Part shown: one piece after another, positions 14,440-62,497 of the stretch
How positions within the stretch are numbered: the first letter of the stretch is position 1
Layout: each line of letters starts with the position of its first letter
Assembly: GCF_017916275.1 (NCBI RefSeq)
Contig: NZ_JAFMST010000001.1
Location: forward strand, 124,001 to 188,000
Origin: Rubellimicrobium arenae
Lineage (GTDB): Bacteria > Pseudomonadota > Alphaproteobacteria > Rhodobacterales > Rhodobacteraceae
Direction: 5' to 3'
Length of the DNA: 64,000 nt
Notes under the pieces: generated by a model
The model's input: the letters and a program-made list of their open reading frames with translations, nothing else
Told to the model about the DNA's origin: nothing
The model's database searches: none
Translations under genes and position numbers: made by a program

Positions 14440-15312
14440 TCAGGCCGATCCCCGAAGGGACCACCACGTGCCCCAGCGGCGCGTGAGGCCCTCGGCGTCG
14501 CCGGCGAACAGGCGGCGCCCCAGCGGGACCACCTGGGCCATCAGCTCCGCATGACGGACGGTGGCCAGGTCCTGCGCCTCGGACCGCAGGGCGGGGGACA
14601 GGTCCGCCGCGTCGAGCCGTTCGCGGAACACGGCCAGGTCGTTCACCTGGCCCAGCATCTCGCCCAGGTCGTCGGCGGCCGAGATATGGGGATCCATCAT
14701 CCCGGCCCAGAGATGGCGGAGGAGGCGGGCCTGATACCAGTGGTCCTTGGTCCTCTTGCGCCATTCATGGAGCGCCTCGGGATCGGGGTCGCGGCGGGCG
14801 GCCTTCATGGCCTTGCGCGCGGCCTCCCAGGTCTGGACCAGCCCCGGCTCGAGCGCGTCCCAGCCCTCCTTCTTCAGGCGCCAGCCCTCGCTCCGGCTGA
14901 CGAGCGAGGACATCGCGTCGGCGAACGGGGGCAGCATCTCGGCCTCGGCGCGGGCGTCGTGATGACGGGCCGCCTCGCGGAACGGGGCCAGCAGGGCCGT
15001 CCGGCGGTCGTCCGGCAGGGGCTCGGTCAGCCGTTCGGCGGTGGACAACTGCACGGCGGCGTCACGAAGGGCCGACAGCCCGCGCCCGGCGTCGCGCAGC
15101 ACCGCGTTCTCGGCGCCGGCGTGCGGAAAGACGGGGCGGACGAGACGCAGCAGGCCCCGCAGCTTCTTGACCGTCTTGCGCATCGCGTGGACGCGAGGCC
15201 CCAGGTCGCCGTCGCCGCGCACCTGGGCCAGCGCGCCCTCGGCCTCCTCGCGGGCGATGCGGCGCAGGGCCGCTTGGACGGATTCGTCCTCGGGCAGGAT
15301 GGCGTAGGGCAT
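14440..15312 (-). CDS. CHAD domain protein
   Basis: A 290-residue helical protein with the conserved histidine pattern of CHAD domains: VHAMRKTVKKLRGLLRLVR in the first half and LHEWRKRTKDHWYQARLL in the second. Both are lysine/arginine-rich helices that bind polyphosphate. CHAD proteins localise to polyphosphate granules or accompany CYTH triphosphatases; no CYTH partner is visible here. It is convergent with lysK. Confidence 0.85.
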   Translation of the reverse strand: MPYAILPEDESVQAALRRIAREEAEGALAQVRGDGDLGPRVHAMRKTVKKLRGLLRLVRPVFPHAGAENAVLRDAGRGLSALRDAAVQLSTAERLTEPLPDDRRTALLAPFREAARHHDARAEAEMLPPFADAMSSLVSRSEGWRLKKEGWDALEPGLVQTWEAARKAMKAARRDPDPEALHEWRKRTKDHWYQARLLRHLWAGMMDPHISAADDLGEMLGQVNDLAVFRERLDAADLSPALRSEAQDLATVRHAELMAQVVPLGRRLFAGDAEGLTRRWGTWWSLRGSA

Positions 15313-56254: not shown

Positions 56255-56788
56255 ATGCCCAACGTCATGGCATGGGATCTGGCGGGCCGGTGCGGCATCG
56301 CCTTCGGACGCGCGGGGGAGATCCCGCGCGCCACCACGGTTGACCTGGGCCGAGCGCTCTCCGAGGCGGAGCGCTTCGCCAAGATCATCCGGGCCACGCA
56401 GCACATGCTGGATCGCTTCCGGCCAGACGTCCTGGTCTATGAGGCGCCTGTGGGTGGACCACGCACCTCCCACTTCCTTGTGGGCGTGGCCAGCTGCTTC
56501 GTGGGGCAGGCGACCATCCTGGGGTACCAGCCTCGGTCCGTCGCCATCGCCACGGTGCGCAAGCACTTTCTGGGCCAGCATCTCACCGCCACGTCGCTGG
56601 GCACCACCAAGGCCAAGGCGCGCGAGCAGATCAAGGCGCGTCTGATCGCCCGCTGCGGAGCCCTCAACTGGCCCGTCCGGAACGACGACGAGGCCGACGC
56701 CTTCGCGATCTGGGATTACGCCTGTGTCACCTACGCCGGCGCTCAGTCCGCCCCTCTGGGCGGCCTCTTCGATCGGGGGGCCGCATGA
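56255..56788 (+). CDS. RuvC-like Holliday-junction resolvase
   Basis: A 177-residue RNase H-fold protein: first acidic residue Asp8 in MAWDLAG, Glu in VLVYEAPVGG and paired acids in NDDEADAFAIWDYA, the RuvC/phage resolvase pattern. Resolves recombination or replication intermediates before packaging. Starts 3 bp after the preceding stop; the next start overlaps its stop (ATGA). Confidence 0.8.
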   Translation: MPNVMAWDLAGRCGIAFGRAGEIPRATTVDLGRALSEAERFAKIIRATQHMLDRFRPDVLVYEAPVGGPRTSHFLVGVASCFVGQATILGYQPRSVAIATVRKHFLGQHLTATSLGTTKAKAREQIKARLIARCGALNWPVRNDDEADAFAIWDYACVTYAGAQSAPLGGLFDRGAA

Positions 56789-57036
56789 ACGCCCTGGTGC
56801 CATACGCCCCGCAGGTCGAGGACGATGACGACCCCTCCGTCCGGTACGCCGGCGCGGACGACGAGCGGCTGGACCTGATGCGCCGCCTCTACGCCCAGGA
56901 GGCGCAGGCCTCGGCCGAGCGGGCCCGAGCTGCTCGCCGGCGTGAGCACAACCTGCGGCTTCTGATGCTGACGTCTCTCCCCGGGCCGGAACACGACCTA
57001 GTGGCCTCGCTGGCGAAGCTGAGGGCCGGATCATGA
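56785..57036 (+). CDS. Phage hypothetical protein
   Basis: An 83-residue charged helical protein (LDLMRRLYAQEAQASAERAR) with an acidic start (EDDDDPS). Overlaps both neighbours by 4 bp. No family recognised. Confidence 0.6.
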   Translation: MNALVPYAPQVEDDDDPSVRYAGADDERLDLMRRLYAQEAQASAERARAARRREHNLRLLMLTSLPGPEHDLVASLAKLRAGS

Positions 57037-57212
57037 CCGAGCTCGAGGCCGCAACTGCCGCGCTGGAGCAGACCGCTCGTCGGCTCTCTGCGGCCACCAC
57101 CGGCAACCAGGAGCGGGGCGACCTGCCCAAGGACGTGCGCGAGCTGCTGGCCCGTCTGGACGGCTCCCTGGCGCGCCTGGACAGCGCGCGACGTCGGGAG
57201 GGGACCGCATGA
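57033..57212 (+). CDS. 59-residue helical phage protein
   Basis: A short gene (MTELEAATAALEQTARRLSA, LPKDVRELLARLDGSLARLD) that overlaps both neighbours by 4 bp (ATGA), which strongly supports it. Probably a coiled-coil accessory protein. Function unknown. Confidence 0.65.
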   Translation: MTELEAATAALEQTARRLSAATTGNQERGDLPKDVRELLARLDGSLARLDSARRREGTA

Positions 57213-57508
57213 AGCGCCCGCCCGTCACCGTCTCCCCGCGCTGCGATTACTGCGGCAGCCTGGTCGCGCCTCACGTGCGGTCGGAGCCGGGGCCGTACTC
57301 CCAGCGCAAGCACAAGGGCAATCGCCGCGCCTGTGACGAGCATGAGGCCGACCTTCAGGCCGAGTTCGAGGCGGCGTTTGGCTCGCGCTTGGCCGCGGTC
57401 GCGCGCGTCGTGCCCGTCCCCGTCGATGTGCCGACCCCGGCGCCCGCTTCGATGCCGAAGAAGGCCAAGGCCAGCGCCCCCGATCCGTCGCAGGGGAGCC
57501 TCTTCTGA
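57209..57508 (+). CDS. Phage zinc-finger-like protein
   Basis: A 99-residue protein with a possible zinc site (PRCDYCGSLVAPH, later RRACDEHEAD) and a Pro/Ala-rich tail ending QGSLF, a sequence resembling a DNA-clamp-binding peptide. Overlaps the methyltransferase start by 1 bp. Function unknown. Confidence 0.6.
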   Translation: MKRPPVTVSPRCDYCGSLVAPHVRSEPGPYSQRKHKGNRRACDEHEADLQAEFEAAFGSRLAAVARVVPVPVDVPTPAPASMPKKAKASAPDPSQGSLF

Positions 57509-58104
57509 TGACCGTCGGGCACGATCTCCTGTCCCTCCGCCCGGCCGGCGGCTTCGGCATGGTCATGGCGGATCCGCCCTGGGCGTTCCTGACGCGCGCC
57601 CCGGCCCAGGACACGCGCGGCCCGGATCGCCATTACGAGTGCCTGACCCTCGACGCCATCAAGGCCATGCCGATTCCGCACGTCGTGGCGCGCTCGTGCT
57701 GGCTCTGGCTCTGGGCCACCAACCCGATGCTCCCCGAGGCGCTGGCCGTCATGGCGGCCTGGGGCTTCACCTTCAAGACGGCCGGTCACTGGGCCAAGCT
57801 CGGGCCCAGCGGCAAGCTGGCCTTCGGGACCGGGTATGTCCTTCGCAACTCGGGCGAGCCTTACCTGATCGGCTCGCGCGGCAAGCCCCGCGTCTGCTCC
57901 CGCGCCGTCCGGTCGGTCATCCTCGCCCCCCGCCGCGAGCACTCCCGCAAGCCCGACGAGGCCTACCGCGACGCCGAGTTGCTCGGCGGCGAGGTGCCGC
58001 GCCTCGACCTCTTCTCCCGCCAGGCCCGGCCCGGATGGACCGCCTGGGGCAACGAAACCCACAAGTTCACCCCCGCGCCGGAGACCCCGGCCGCCGCGGC
58101 ATAG
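57508..58104 (+). CDS. MT-A70-family adenine N6-methyltransferase
   Basis: A 198-residue MTase: catalytic DPPW at residues 22-25 (MVMADPPWAF), HYECLTLDAIKAMP, WLWLWATNPML, and the C-terminal block EAYRDAELLGGEVPRLDLFSR, WTAWGNE. Methylates adenine in DNA, probably protecting the phage from host restriction or marking its DNA. No cognate endonuclease nearby. Confidence 0.88.
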   Translation: MTVGHDLLSLRPAGGFGMVMADPPWAFLTRAPAQDTRGPDRHYECLTLDAIKAMPIPHVVARSCWLWLWATNPMLPEALAVMAAWGFTFKTAGHWAKLGPSGKLAFGTGYVLRNSGEPYLIGSRGKPRVCSRAVRSVILAPRREHSRKPDEAYRDAELLGGEVPRLDLFSRQARPGWTAWGNETHKFTPAPETPAAAA

Positions 58105-58114
58105 GAGCCCCGCC

Positions 58115-59008
58115 ATGGGCAGGATCAGGACCATCAAGCCCGAGTTCTTCAAGCACGAGGAGCTGTTCGACGCGGAGGAGGAAACCGGCCTCCCGCTGCG
58201 GCTGGCCTTCGCCGGATTGTGGACCGTCGCCGATCGCGAGGGCCGGTTCGAGTGGAAGGTCCGGTCGCTGAAATCGGACGTCCTGCCCTACGACAAGGTC
58301 GACTTTTCACGCGTGCTCGACGCGTTGGCCACGCGTGGCTTTCTCGTCAGGTATCGCGTGGACGGGCGCGAATACGGGGCGATTCCGGGCTTCAAGAAGC
58401 ACCAAGTGGTCAATAATCGGGAGTCGGCGAGCCAAATCCCGCCCCCGCCAGAAAACTCTGATCCGCCAAAGGGTTCGACGCGTACCTCACGCGTGGACGA
58501 CGCGTGCCCCACGCGACACGATCTTGCACAGGGGGAAGGGAAGGGAAGGGAAGGGAAAGGAAGGGAAGAGGAAAGTAGTAGTCCCCCCCTTGCGCGTGCG
58601 CGCGGCGGGGCCGAGGGGGAGGGCGCTTCGCTCGGGTTTGATCCCGATGAGATCCTGGACGAGGTTCGGGAGGCCCTCGGGATCCGAGCGCCGTTCCCGA
58701 CCTACTGGCAGGCCGTCCATGCCATCCCCCACCTGATCCGCTGGGTGCAGGACTTCGGCCTGCGACCCGAGCAGATCGTTCCGGCCGTCCGCCGCAGCCA
58801 GGAAAACTACGACAGCCCACCCGACGGCCCCAAGGCGCTGGACGGCGTCATGCAGCGGCTCGGGCGTGACCTGGCCCAGCCCAGCCGCGAGGAGCGTCCG
58901 CCCCGCCGTCTGGCCCTGGTGAAGCCGCCTCGGGACGACGCCCCGACCTTCGACCTGGCGGCCGAGATGGACGCCGCCTTCGCCAAGGTGATGGGAGAGG
59001 GCCAGTGA
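58115..59008 (+). CDS. Phage replisome-organizer-like protein containing the putative origin
   Basis: A 297-residue protein with an N-terminal winged-helix resembling phage replisome organizers (RTIKPEFFKHEELFDAEEET, RLAFAGLWTVADREGRFEWK), a flexible linker encoded by purine repeats (GKGREGKGREEE), and a C-terminal helical domain (PTYWQAVHAIPHLIRWVQDFG). Inside the gene lie two ACGCGT iteron clusters, resembling the phage lambda O/ori layout. Its stop overlaps the next start (GTGA). Confidence 0.72.
   Translation: MGRIRTIKPEFFKHEELFDAEEETGLPLRLAFAGLWTVADREGRFEWKVRSLKSDVLPYDKVDFSRVLDALATRGFLVRYRVDGREYGAIPGFKKHQVVNNRESASQIPPPPENSDPPKGSTRTSRVDDACPTRHDLAQGEGKGREGKGREEESSSPPLARARGGAEGEGASLGFDPDEILDEVREALGIRAPFPTYWQAVHAIPHLIRWVQDFGLRPEQIVPAVRRSQENYDSPPDGPKALDGVMQRLGRDLAQPSREERPPRRLALVKPPRDDAPTFDLAAEMDAAFAKVMGEGQ
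58309..58336. repeat. Iteron cluster A: three ACGCGT at 11-bp spacing
   Basis: ACGCGT at 58309, 58320 and 58331, exactly 11 bp apart (about one helical turn). Eleven is not a multiple of three, so the spacing is not imposed by protein sequence. Confidence 0.75.
58478..58516. repeat. Iteron cluster B: four ACGCG(T/A) at 11-bp spacing
   Basis: ACGCGT at 58478, 58489 and 58500, and ACGCGA at 58511, again exactly 11 bp apart. With cluster A this gives seven phased palindromic hexamers in 208 bp of a replication gene; a probable initiator-binding origin. Confidence 0.75.
58531..58571. repeat. GGGAA purine tract
   Basis: A polypurine run of about five GGGAA units and variants, just after iteron cluster B, encoding the GKGREGKGREEE linker. 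It could be a DNA-unwinding or G-quadruplex-forming element, or a slippage-prone repeat. Confidence 0.6.
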
Positions 59009-59850
59009 CCAACGATCTCGAAACCCGGGAGTCGTTCCTGAAGCGCAACCTGCTCGACTTCCTCGCCCGTCGCACCCCGCCCGAGCGGTTCAAGGCCGAC
59101 GACGGGCTGCGGGCCAAGGAGCTGGCCGCCCTCCTCGGGACCGTGCTGCGCCACGCGCCAGCCCACGAGTGGGCGGACTGGTGGGTCGACGTCGAGGCCC
59201 GGGTCGCCGAATCCGGCAAGGGTCATCTGTGGCCCACGCAGGGCCAGATCGCCGACGCGGCCAAGTCCCACCAGGAGGCGAAGATGGGCCGCAGCCGTCC
59301 GGCGACCGCGCGCGATGGCAGCCGCTTGCCCGCCGGCCAGATGAAGACCTCGGCCCAGATCGACGCCGAGCGGATCCAGCGCGGCGATGCGGTGAGCGAA
59401 TACCGGCTGTGGGGCCGCGGGGCCGACGAGCTGCTGGCCACGGGCCTGGTCACGCTCGAGGACCTGGAGCCCTACCGCAAGTACATGCGCCATGCCTGGC
59501 GGAGCACCTATGGTGAGGAGGAGGCCCAGCGGCTCGACGCCGAGCGCGTCACCGGCCGGTACCAGTCGCCGGGGGTGTCGGGGACCAAGCCCCACGCGGG
59601 AGGCTTCCAGCGCATGCCGGGCATGGACCCGAGCCCGACCTATCGGCCGAGCCGGGAGGATGTCGTCGGGGATGAGAACGCCCCGCACTTCCAGGAGCCC
59701 GACCCGGCCAGCGAGGAGGGCCGGCAGCTGCGGGCCAGCCGGAACGCCACCCGGGCCAGCATGGGCCTGCCGCCGCTGCCTGAGCCCGCGCCCCCGGACT
59801 ACGACCTGGTGCCTGACGACACGCCGGACCTGCGTGAGGGGATGGCGTGA
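59005..59850 (+). CDS. Phage replication accessory protein (helicase loader-like position)
   Basis: A 281-residue protein with no confident domain. Helical N-terminus (FLKRNLLDFLARRTPPERFK, ELAALLGTVLRHAPAHEWADWW), middle segment YRKYMRHAWRSTYGEEEAQR, and Pro-rich C-terminus. It directly follows and overlaps the replisome-organizer-like gene, where helicase loaders usually lie; no Walker motif is visible, so it is not an ATPase loader. Confidence 0.6.
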   Translation: MTNDLETRESFLKRNLLDFLARRTPPERFKADDGLRAKELAALLGTVLRHAPAHEWADWWVDVEARVAESGKGHLWPTQGQIADAAKSHQEAKMGRSRPATARDGSRLPAGQMKTSAQIDAERIQRGDAVSEYRLWGRGADELLATGLVTLEDLEPYRKYMRHAWRSTYGEEEAQRLDAERVTGRYQSPGVSGTKPHAGGFQRMPGMDPSPTYRPSREDVVGDENAPHFQEPDPASEEGRQLRASRNATRASMGLPPLPEPAPPDYDLVPDDTPDLREGMA

Positions 59851-60895: not shown

Positions 60896-61120
60896 TTCGC
60901 ATTTCTGGGGTGAGCGGATGACTGCCGCTGGACCAAGGCAGCAGGAACCTCGCCGTAGTGTGGTTGTTTGGCTTGGTCCATCCGCCACCTTCGTAACCGG
61001 TCCAGCCCCGCACCGGTTAGAGCCGCTCCAGCGTTTACGTCAACAGCGCGGCGGGTGGGTAAGTCAACTAGCGCTGATGGACGGCGCGGGGCACCTGATC
61101 GCAGTCAATTAGAAAGCACC
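60896..61120. other. Leader before the HNH gene
   Basis: With the promoter and hairpin this makes a 294-bp gene-free stretch. No supported coding frame; no Shine-Dalgarno-led small gene seen. Confidence 0.5.
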
Positions 61121-62044: not shown

Positions 62045-62497
62045 GTGTCGGACGAGATTTCGGGCCCCAAGGCCAAGCGGGGCCGTGGCCAGCCGCCGTT
62101 CGAGCCGACCGAGGCCGATTTTGACAAGGTGCACATGCTCTTGGCCCTGGACTGGACCAACGAGCAGATTGCCAACGCGCTGGGCATCTCGCAGCCCACG
62201 CTGCGCAAATACTTTTCAGCCCAGATCCGGGAGCGCGACCGCATGCGGGACCGGGTCGAGGGCGAGCGCTTGGCCAGCCTTTACGCCTCGGCCAAGGCCG
62301 GCCGCATCACCGCGATCCGCGAGCTGGGCCGCGTGCTGGGCTCGGACGAGGCGGCCCATGAGGCGGCGCTGAACCGCGCGGCCTCGAGGCCAGCGGCCGA
62401 CAAAGCCGCGAAGCTCGGCAAGAAGGAAGCCAACCGGGTGGCTGCGCTCGATGCGGAGGAAGAGCTGGCGCGCCTGTACAGCGGCACGATGAACTGA
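62045..62497 (+). CDS. Terminase small subunit-like protein
   Basis: A 150-residue protein with an HTH (WTNEQIANALGISQPTLRKYF) and helical multimerisation region, immediately before the large terminase. It starts at GTG 62045 with CGGAGA about seven bases upstream. Binds the packaging site and delivers DNA to the large subunit. Confidence 0.78.
   Translation: MSDEISGPKAKRGRGQPPFEPTEADFDKVHMLLALDWTNEQIANALGISQPTLRKYFSAQIRERDRMRDRVEGERLASLYASAKAGRITAIRELGRVLGSDEAAHEAALNRAASRPAADKAAKLGKKEANRVAALDAEEELARLYSGTMN

Follow-up and report, generated by a model that had tools for sequence, protein, structure and literature searches.

Origins of replication that lie inside genes are already known from lambda O and from the RepA_N plasmids. 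In the accounts of lambda drawn on here, the origin sits in the middle of the initiator gene, where iterons stand beside a tract and are bound by the initiator (PMC7466680). The iterons are four in number and are inverted repeats (PMC7466680, PMC5043065), and the tract is AT-rich. The N-terminal domain (NTD) of plasmid pSK41 Rep, a winged helix of about 120 residues, is described as binding four Rep boxes in the center of the rep gene; the origin encodes the linker of the protein, the C-terminal domain (CTD) is conserved only within the host genus, and the origin-encoded part of the protein can be deleted if the origin is supplied elsewhere (PMC5703833). In pPR9-type hybrid initiators, which carry an HTH_36 (pfam13730) N-domain, the N-domain and the origin are exchangeable as a block on a given C-domain (PMC5703833). 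The iterons of most characterized RepA_N replicons converge on a poly-A tract (PMC7145576). The repABC plasmids of Alphaproteobacteria have oriV in repC, with an A+T-rich region and, in the sections of the source used here, no reported iterons (PMC3155836). RepA of mycobacteriophage Miko is plasmid-type, with 320-350 residues, and no repeats were reported by its authors in the parts of their paper cited here (PMC7157519). Searches by topic in the main texts of the open-licence literature found no description of the array presented below, of an ACGCGT phage origin or of a G-rich in-gene phage origin.

The window analyzed here is a stretch of 64,000 nucleotides from the 4.55 Mb genome of Rubellimicrobium arenae, in which a prophage carries an initiator gene at 58115-59008 (plus strand, 297 aa). 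A preliminary description of this DNA had reported seven ACGCG(T/A) hexamers in two clusters with every within-cluster step at 11 bp, followed by a GGGAA purine tract, and both observations were reproduced. Cluster A (58309-58336) has three ACGCGT units, at 58309, 58320, and 58331. Cluster B (58478-58516) lies in the linker-encoding part of the gene and has three ACGCGT units and one ACGCGA, at 58478, 58489, 58500, and 58511. The tract of GGGAA repeats (58530-58575) is an uninterrupted run of 46 purines, 26 G and 20 A, on the same plus strand and is a putative strand-opening or loading site. We consider it highly probable from these sequences and those of the relatives described below that the prophage has an in-gene replication origin made up of the two clusters and the purine tract, and that this origin is read by the N-domain of the initiator itself.

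In the whole 64 kb, exact hexamer triples with a period of 11 occurred at clusters A and B only. At the other periods from 7 to 30, the only triples were those within the tract, at periods 10 and 15, and a single one at 15057 (period 30). Third-order Markov simulations of the window (200 runs) gave an average of 0.025 period-11 triples each, none of them palindromic. ACGCGW was rarer than chance in the window (71 matches vs 98 expected), and its triple pattern was found in the 4.55 Mb host genome at clusters A and B only. GC skew had a local minimum near 58.5 kb and a deeper one near 87.5 kb.

Two other sequences near the clusters were noted. A degenerate unit, TCGCGT, lies at 58354-58359, 23 bp beyond the third unit of cluster A, and in six relatives (L005, L006, L007, L009, L011, and L017) cluster A is followed at 22 bp by an exact ACGCG unit, at gene offset 239. 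Between the array and the tract, TCTTGCACA at 58522-58530 resembles a DnaA box with one mismatch. TTGCACA or TGTGCAA was present in the corresponding part of the gene in 5 of 56 relatives; of four stretches taken as controls, three had the word in 0 of 56 and the fourth in 1 of 56, and a DnaA box is not claimed.

The preliminary description had called the host gene a replication gene, and profile HMM searches agreed. The N-terminal 115 residues of the initiator matched PHROG 16167 (E 1.6e-41), 1408 (E 6.3e-27), and 2149 (E 4.7e-24), all annotated "replication initiation protein." Eight PHROG families matched in total, five with this annotation, two without a function, and one HNH endonuclease. 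No Pfam family, including RepA_N or a lambda-O-type domain, matched at E 0.001, and NCBIfam gave no match. The proteins of six relatives (L005, L106, L111, L112, L116, and L136) had no Pfam match at E 1. On the upstream side, the prophage has HTH genes of repressor type near 52 kb and, at 56255, a RuvC-like resolvase; immediately 5' of the initiator lies an MT-A70-type DNA methyltransferase (57508-58104, plus strand; Pfam PF05063 E 2.1e-28, PHROG 359). Methyltransferase genes are also close to the initiator in Xeno, Nymphadora, and Hum25. The downstream gene (59005-59850, plus strand) overlaps the initiator stop; it is a candidate helicase loader by its position, and PHROG, NCBIfam, and Pfam profiles found no significant family for it. 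Further on are an HNH endonuclease at 60968 and, at 62045, a gene that weakly matches small terminase (E 5.3e-05), followed by large terminase, head protein, and connector genes. Relatives of the initiator adjoin a DnaC-like loader and DnaB in F10, a DnaB helicase in JBD44, and a DnaC-like protein in Mx8, and in HK639 the relative directly precedes a P-like loader, which is the position of lambda O. The initiator role of the gene family is drawn from its PHROG membership together with these helicase and loader neighbors.

An AlphaFold2 model of the initiator, built from 65 sequences, divides it into an N-terminal domain, a linker that contains the putative origin, and a helical C-domain modeled with less certainty. 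Residues 11-110 were predicted with high confidence (block mean pLDDT 89-98) as helices 9-13, 15-24, 28-38, 49-56, and 64-73 and strands 78-82 and 85-89, and this predicted order is that of a winged helix. The N-terminal domain (aa 1-115, 58115-58459, plus strand) is the likely reader of the iterons, given the model and a distribution that tracks the hexamer. By its place in the fold, the helix at aa 64-73 (58304-58333) is the putative recognition helix, and most of cluster A falls within its codons. The codons of the linker, of which residues 126-174 are of low confidence, mostly with pLDDT below 50, contain cluster B and the purine tract. A fold search returned a variety of winged helices, with no match at E 0.001. 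Staphylococcus aureus RepA, structure 4PT7 (PMC7145576), was among the weak fold matches (4pt7_B; rank 7, E 0.047, TM 0.43 on target), amid generic winged helices. A PDB sequence-profile search had a best E of 0.1 and found nothing relevant.

The preliminary description had also proposed a lambda-type layout with an origin in the initiator gene, and this proposal was supported, with a partial match to lambda. As in the published accounts of lambda O and ori-lambda, which apply also to Stx phages, the initiator gene of the window contains repeated sites next to a tract, conserved in relatives. Unlike in those accounts, its units are 11-bp hexamer units, its tract is GC-rich and purine (26 G, 20 A), there is no AT-rich region, an extra cluster lies in the codons of the DNA-binding domain, and the protein has no Pfam match. 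The likeness to RepA_N initiators, as pSK41 Rep is described, is one of architecture only, with a winged-helix NTD, central in-gene sites, and a variable CTD; the window gene differs in having no Pfam RepA_N match, no significant fold match to 4PT7, and a G-rich tract. The window shares with the repABC plasmids, as reported, the placement of its putative origin within the initiator gene of an alphaproteobacterial replicon, but has iterons and no A+T-rich region.

Next, relatives of the initiator gene, which occur in 184 phage records, were compared. The best 80 of 589 relatives were retained and the searches favor near kin, so the share of ACGCGT carriers among them is not a frequency. The comparison covered 103 relative genes, of which 85 had a phased ACGCG unit, and 56 of these were left once genes more than 88% identical were removed. 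With up to two mismatches allowed per unit, 45 of the 56 had four units in cluster B and 40 had three in cluster A. The last B unit is degenerate in its 3' half, a degeneracy that the loose count may exaggerate. The preliminary description had argued for selection at the DNA level from the 11-bp step, an argument that is only suggestive alone and is now supported by synonymous sites. Among same-residue sequences of the 56 genes, without correction for kinship, synonymous entropy in codons 64-74 was 0.19 of background, vs 0.92 in the 89 codons outside 63-82. S65, D69, A70, T73, and R74 each used one single codon wherever the residue was present. Since codons elsewhere in those genes vary, shared ancestry alone does not explain the frozen codons of cluster A. 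In a Shinella relative (L011:6001-6261), an 87-aa open frame diverges after cluster A near the contig end, and the cluster A units are kept.

The preliminary description had named relatives that retain the protein and lose the spacing as the finding that would count against it, and both sets of relatives, with and without ACGCGT, were checked for this. In the two cluster regions of the 56 ACGCGT genes, the spacing held: 180 of 216 successive spacings were 11, 21 were 22, and one was 10. The distances from A to B (53 distances) had no distinct peak at 10.5 bp. The preliminary description had also proposed to look for the array at the same gene position in related prophages. Viral contigs were searched, without regard to the encoded protein, for triple ACGCGT with 11-bp steps. 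At least 120 stretches were found, and in the 80 loci that were examined, 97 of 108 occurrences fell in a frame homologous to the initiator N-domain; the gene offset was also the same for 51 of the 97. Among the 11 remaining occurrences, two (L116 and L136) were in phrog_9474 initiator genes, and one was in a locus (L144) with a homologue elsewhere in that locus. The phrog_9474 genes (L116:402-1160 and L136:7325-8455, minus strand) have 11-bp ACGCGT arrays in-gene with a different tract, which may reflect either convergence or a common ancestry far back.

The purine tract was conserved along with the array. In 55 of the 56 genes the linker contained 18 or more purines in a row, and none of the 56 had such a run elsewhere in the gene. 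L076 is the exception, since its purine stretch is interrupted and precedes the array. In L027, units lie on both sides of the tract. These two genes are natural tests of the importance of order. A G-quadruplex-type (G3) motif was found in 28 of the 56 linkers; a G-quadruplex was therefore rejected as a universal requirement, and the purine tract is taken as the common feature.

Initiators often regulate their own expression. The clusters could be an intragenic operator through which the protein limits transcription of its own gene, with the true origin elsewhere, and a DNA-binding N-domain with sites in its own gene fits this equally well. Any such control would act by roadblock, since no sigma-70-type promoter-like site was found near the clusters, at 57000-59500. 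However, an operator needs no linked purine tract, yet the tract accompanies the array in 55 of 56 relatives, and the sites within the lambda O and pSK41 rep genes serve as origins in the cited accounts (PMC7466680, PMC5703833). We consider the operator improbable.

The in-gene origin reading was also examined in 26 relatives that lack an ACGCGT array; these were picked by hand from 36 genes as one or a few per lineage. The genes omitted (L014, L019, L078, L105, L226, L227, L229, L232, L234, and L236) were near-copies within a lineage or ACGCGT carriers. Matching 4-mers were counted by lag as direct repeats only, with simple repeats and purine runs masked. The pooled linkers of the 26 genes, uncorrected for kinship, gave 141 matches at lag 11, vs 18.0 in shuffles (z 21.5); the same lag gave z 2.6 in the N-domain and z 0.7 in the C-part. 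Lags 22 and 33 were also high in the linkers, as were 21 and 7, which fits unmasked tract repeats. When a gene was scored singly by having no more than 5 of 500 shuffles as high, 12 of the 26 had a lag-11 signal (L015, L022, HK639, IFTN1, Gsput1, ct7QV12, Bernal13, Emma, Xeno, BigBern1, SOVA965, and PSonyx) and 14 had none in this direct-repeat test. The claim that relatives keep the spacing therefore held for the ACGCGT carriers and for these 12, and failed to extend to the other 14. The linker repeat has a period of 12 in L012, a Treponema MAG, and of 13 bp in L024. One-turn spacing is widespread, and no generality beyond the 12 of 26 is implied.

The words themselves, identified by eye, differ between lineages. 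Bernal13, Phalm, and Nymphadora have TCGCGA with a GGGGAACA-type tract, Gsput1 and PSonyx have CTCACTGAG-type words, and L022 has ATGCAT. In Bernal13, TCGCGA occurs at 180/191/202 and 360/371/382/393. Steps of 10 and 11 are mixed in Phalm (159/170/180) and L022 (332/342/353/364), a mixture that fits one helical turn. Across relatives, the tract is of the GGGAA, GGGAACA, GGGGAACA, or AGAAGG type, or is GATTCCT-like with the purines mostly on the other strand. Bernal13, Phalm, and Nymphadora (L233, L234, and L236) are Mycobacterium and Gordonia phages with TCGCGA at 10-11 bp in two clusters, and their host genes are annotated "RepA-like replication initiator" or "replication initiation protein."

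The two clusters were found to change together. The 6-bp words phased in each linker were sought in the gene's own N-domain DNA (nt 101-290) in 35 genes, namely the 36 plus the window, minus L019 and L023. One of the 35, Mx8, had no phased linker word. In the remaining 34 genes, own words gave 134 N-domain hits, vs 23.5 from the words of other genes, and none of 2000 permutations, uncorrected for kinship, was as high. In the C-part, used as a control, the 41 own hits were somewhat above the cross value of 28.9. At least one own hit in the N-domain was found in 24 of the 34 genes. Cluster A is therefore not universal, since 10 of the 34, including Gsput1, F10, and SOVA965, had none. The clear cases of A/B agreement, some of them interrelated, are Bernal13, Phalm, Nymphadora, Xeno, Emma, BigBern1, PSonyx, Austintatious, and an Endozoicomonas plasmid.

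The repeats appear to go with the N-domain. On an N-domain tree of 76 rows and few columns, which included 42 of the 56 ACGCGT representatives, the ACGCGT label changed 3 times, vs 23.7 in shuffles. By single linkage, the C-domains (residues from 171) of the 56 genes formed 16 families, with that of the window alone in its own. Two genes from host-family genomes, L003:940-1950 and L004:1345-2355 (minus strand), have a C-domain like that of the window (37% over 73 aa and 33%, respectively) and an HTH_36 N-domain. Their linkers have quite different repeats, palindromic GTGTCC/GGACAC, before a purine-rich stretch. Judged by their sequences, these genes are a natural module swap of reader and repeats. 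Like the pPR9-type hybrids, as described, they have an HTH_36 N-domain, here joined to the C-domain type of the window; the window gene itself differs from those hybrids in its N-domain family and its repeats. Both the 16 C-domain families under one hexamer and the HTH_36 genes with other repeats suggest that the repeats follow the N-domain. The phrog_9474 genes, which have another N-domain family and the same hexamer, are a possible exception to this rule.

These results bear on whether another reader, of phage or host origin, such as a repressor, a partition protein, or DnaA, could use the sites, their position in the initiator gene being incidental. Short repeats also act as centromere-like sites, as described for parS of mycobacteriophage RedRock (PMC7157519). 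However, the words shift between lineages jointly in A and B and track the initiator N-domain, which is unlike a host factor, and the array is not found elsewhere in the host genome; we regard another reader as very unlikely. It is extremely unlikely that the repeats and tract arose from selection on a repetitive charged linker or on mRNA structure: although the linker encodes repetitive peptides such as QGEGKGREGKGREEE and the palindromic A and B hexamers pair in the predicted RNA fold, the units are about equal in the three reading frames (A 50/53/50, B 58/66/55), though the first B unit favors one (35 of 56), cluster A has almost no variation at synonymous sites, some relatives, e.g., ct7QV12, have non-palindromic repeats, and the folding of 58290-58590 was no better than that of shuffles (z 0.85).

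The reading as an in-gene origin is based on selection at the DNA level, the conserved 11-bp phase, the linked tract, the co-variation of A and B, and the tie between hexamer and N-domain. Several points count against it: the tract is GC-rich, unlike usual unwinding regions, 14 of 26 relatives without ACGCGT have no lag-11 signal when taken one by one, 10 of 34 genes have no cluster A words, and the order of the tract differs in L076 and L027. On the best reading, by analogy, the origin would work in the manner of lambda O or pSK41 Rep and would differ from both in its one-turn iterons and its G-rich tract. The N-terminal winged helix would bind ACGCGT, and the sequence comparisons strongly imply that it does so with one unit per helical turn. 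Such spacing would align bound protomers along a single face of the double helix and could bring the two clusters together in one nucleoprotein structure. The strain that this structure creates may then open the DNA at or beside the G-rich tract, or the tract may present its purine strand, and the variable C-domain or the product of the next gene would bring the helicase or its loader. For the assembly of the complex, the opening of the tract, and the delivery of the helicase, the proposal draws on analogy to the cited accounts of lambda O (PMC7466680) and of pSK41 Rep (PMC5703833).

Beyond this prophage, we suggest tentatively, and with less than even confidence in the combined proposal, that phages of Proteobacteria and Actinobacteria may share a large undescribed class of origin. 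Lineage-specific one-turn iterons of 10-11 bp would run up to a tandem tract, G-rich and strand-asymmetric, whose opening would depend on a non-B structure (G-quadruplex or triplex) instead of on AT-richness, and a second array would lie in the codons around the reading helix. The G-quadruplex part of this idea is drawn from a sequence motif in half of the genes. The layout described here provides a simple rule by which a putative origin and the likely recognition sequence of its initiator can be located from sequence alone for many phages, including those of Mycobacterium, Gordonia, Vibrio, and rhizobia. Two questions are made testable: by what means a GC-rich tract opens, and how specificity changes when the sites lie in the codons of the DNA-binding domain that reads them. 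If the proposal is true, a change of specificity would mean rewriting the reader's codons and its sites together. The word read by each winged helix could then be taken from its own gene, which would provide a natural protein-DNA recognition code.
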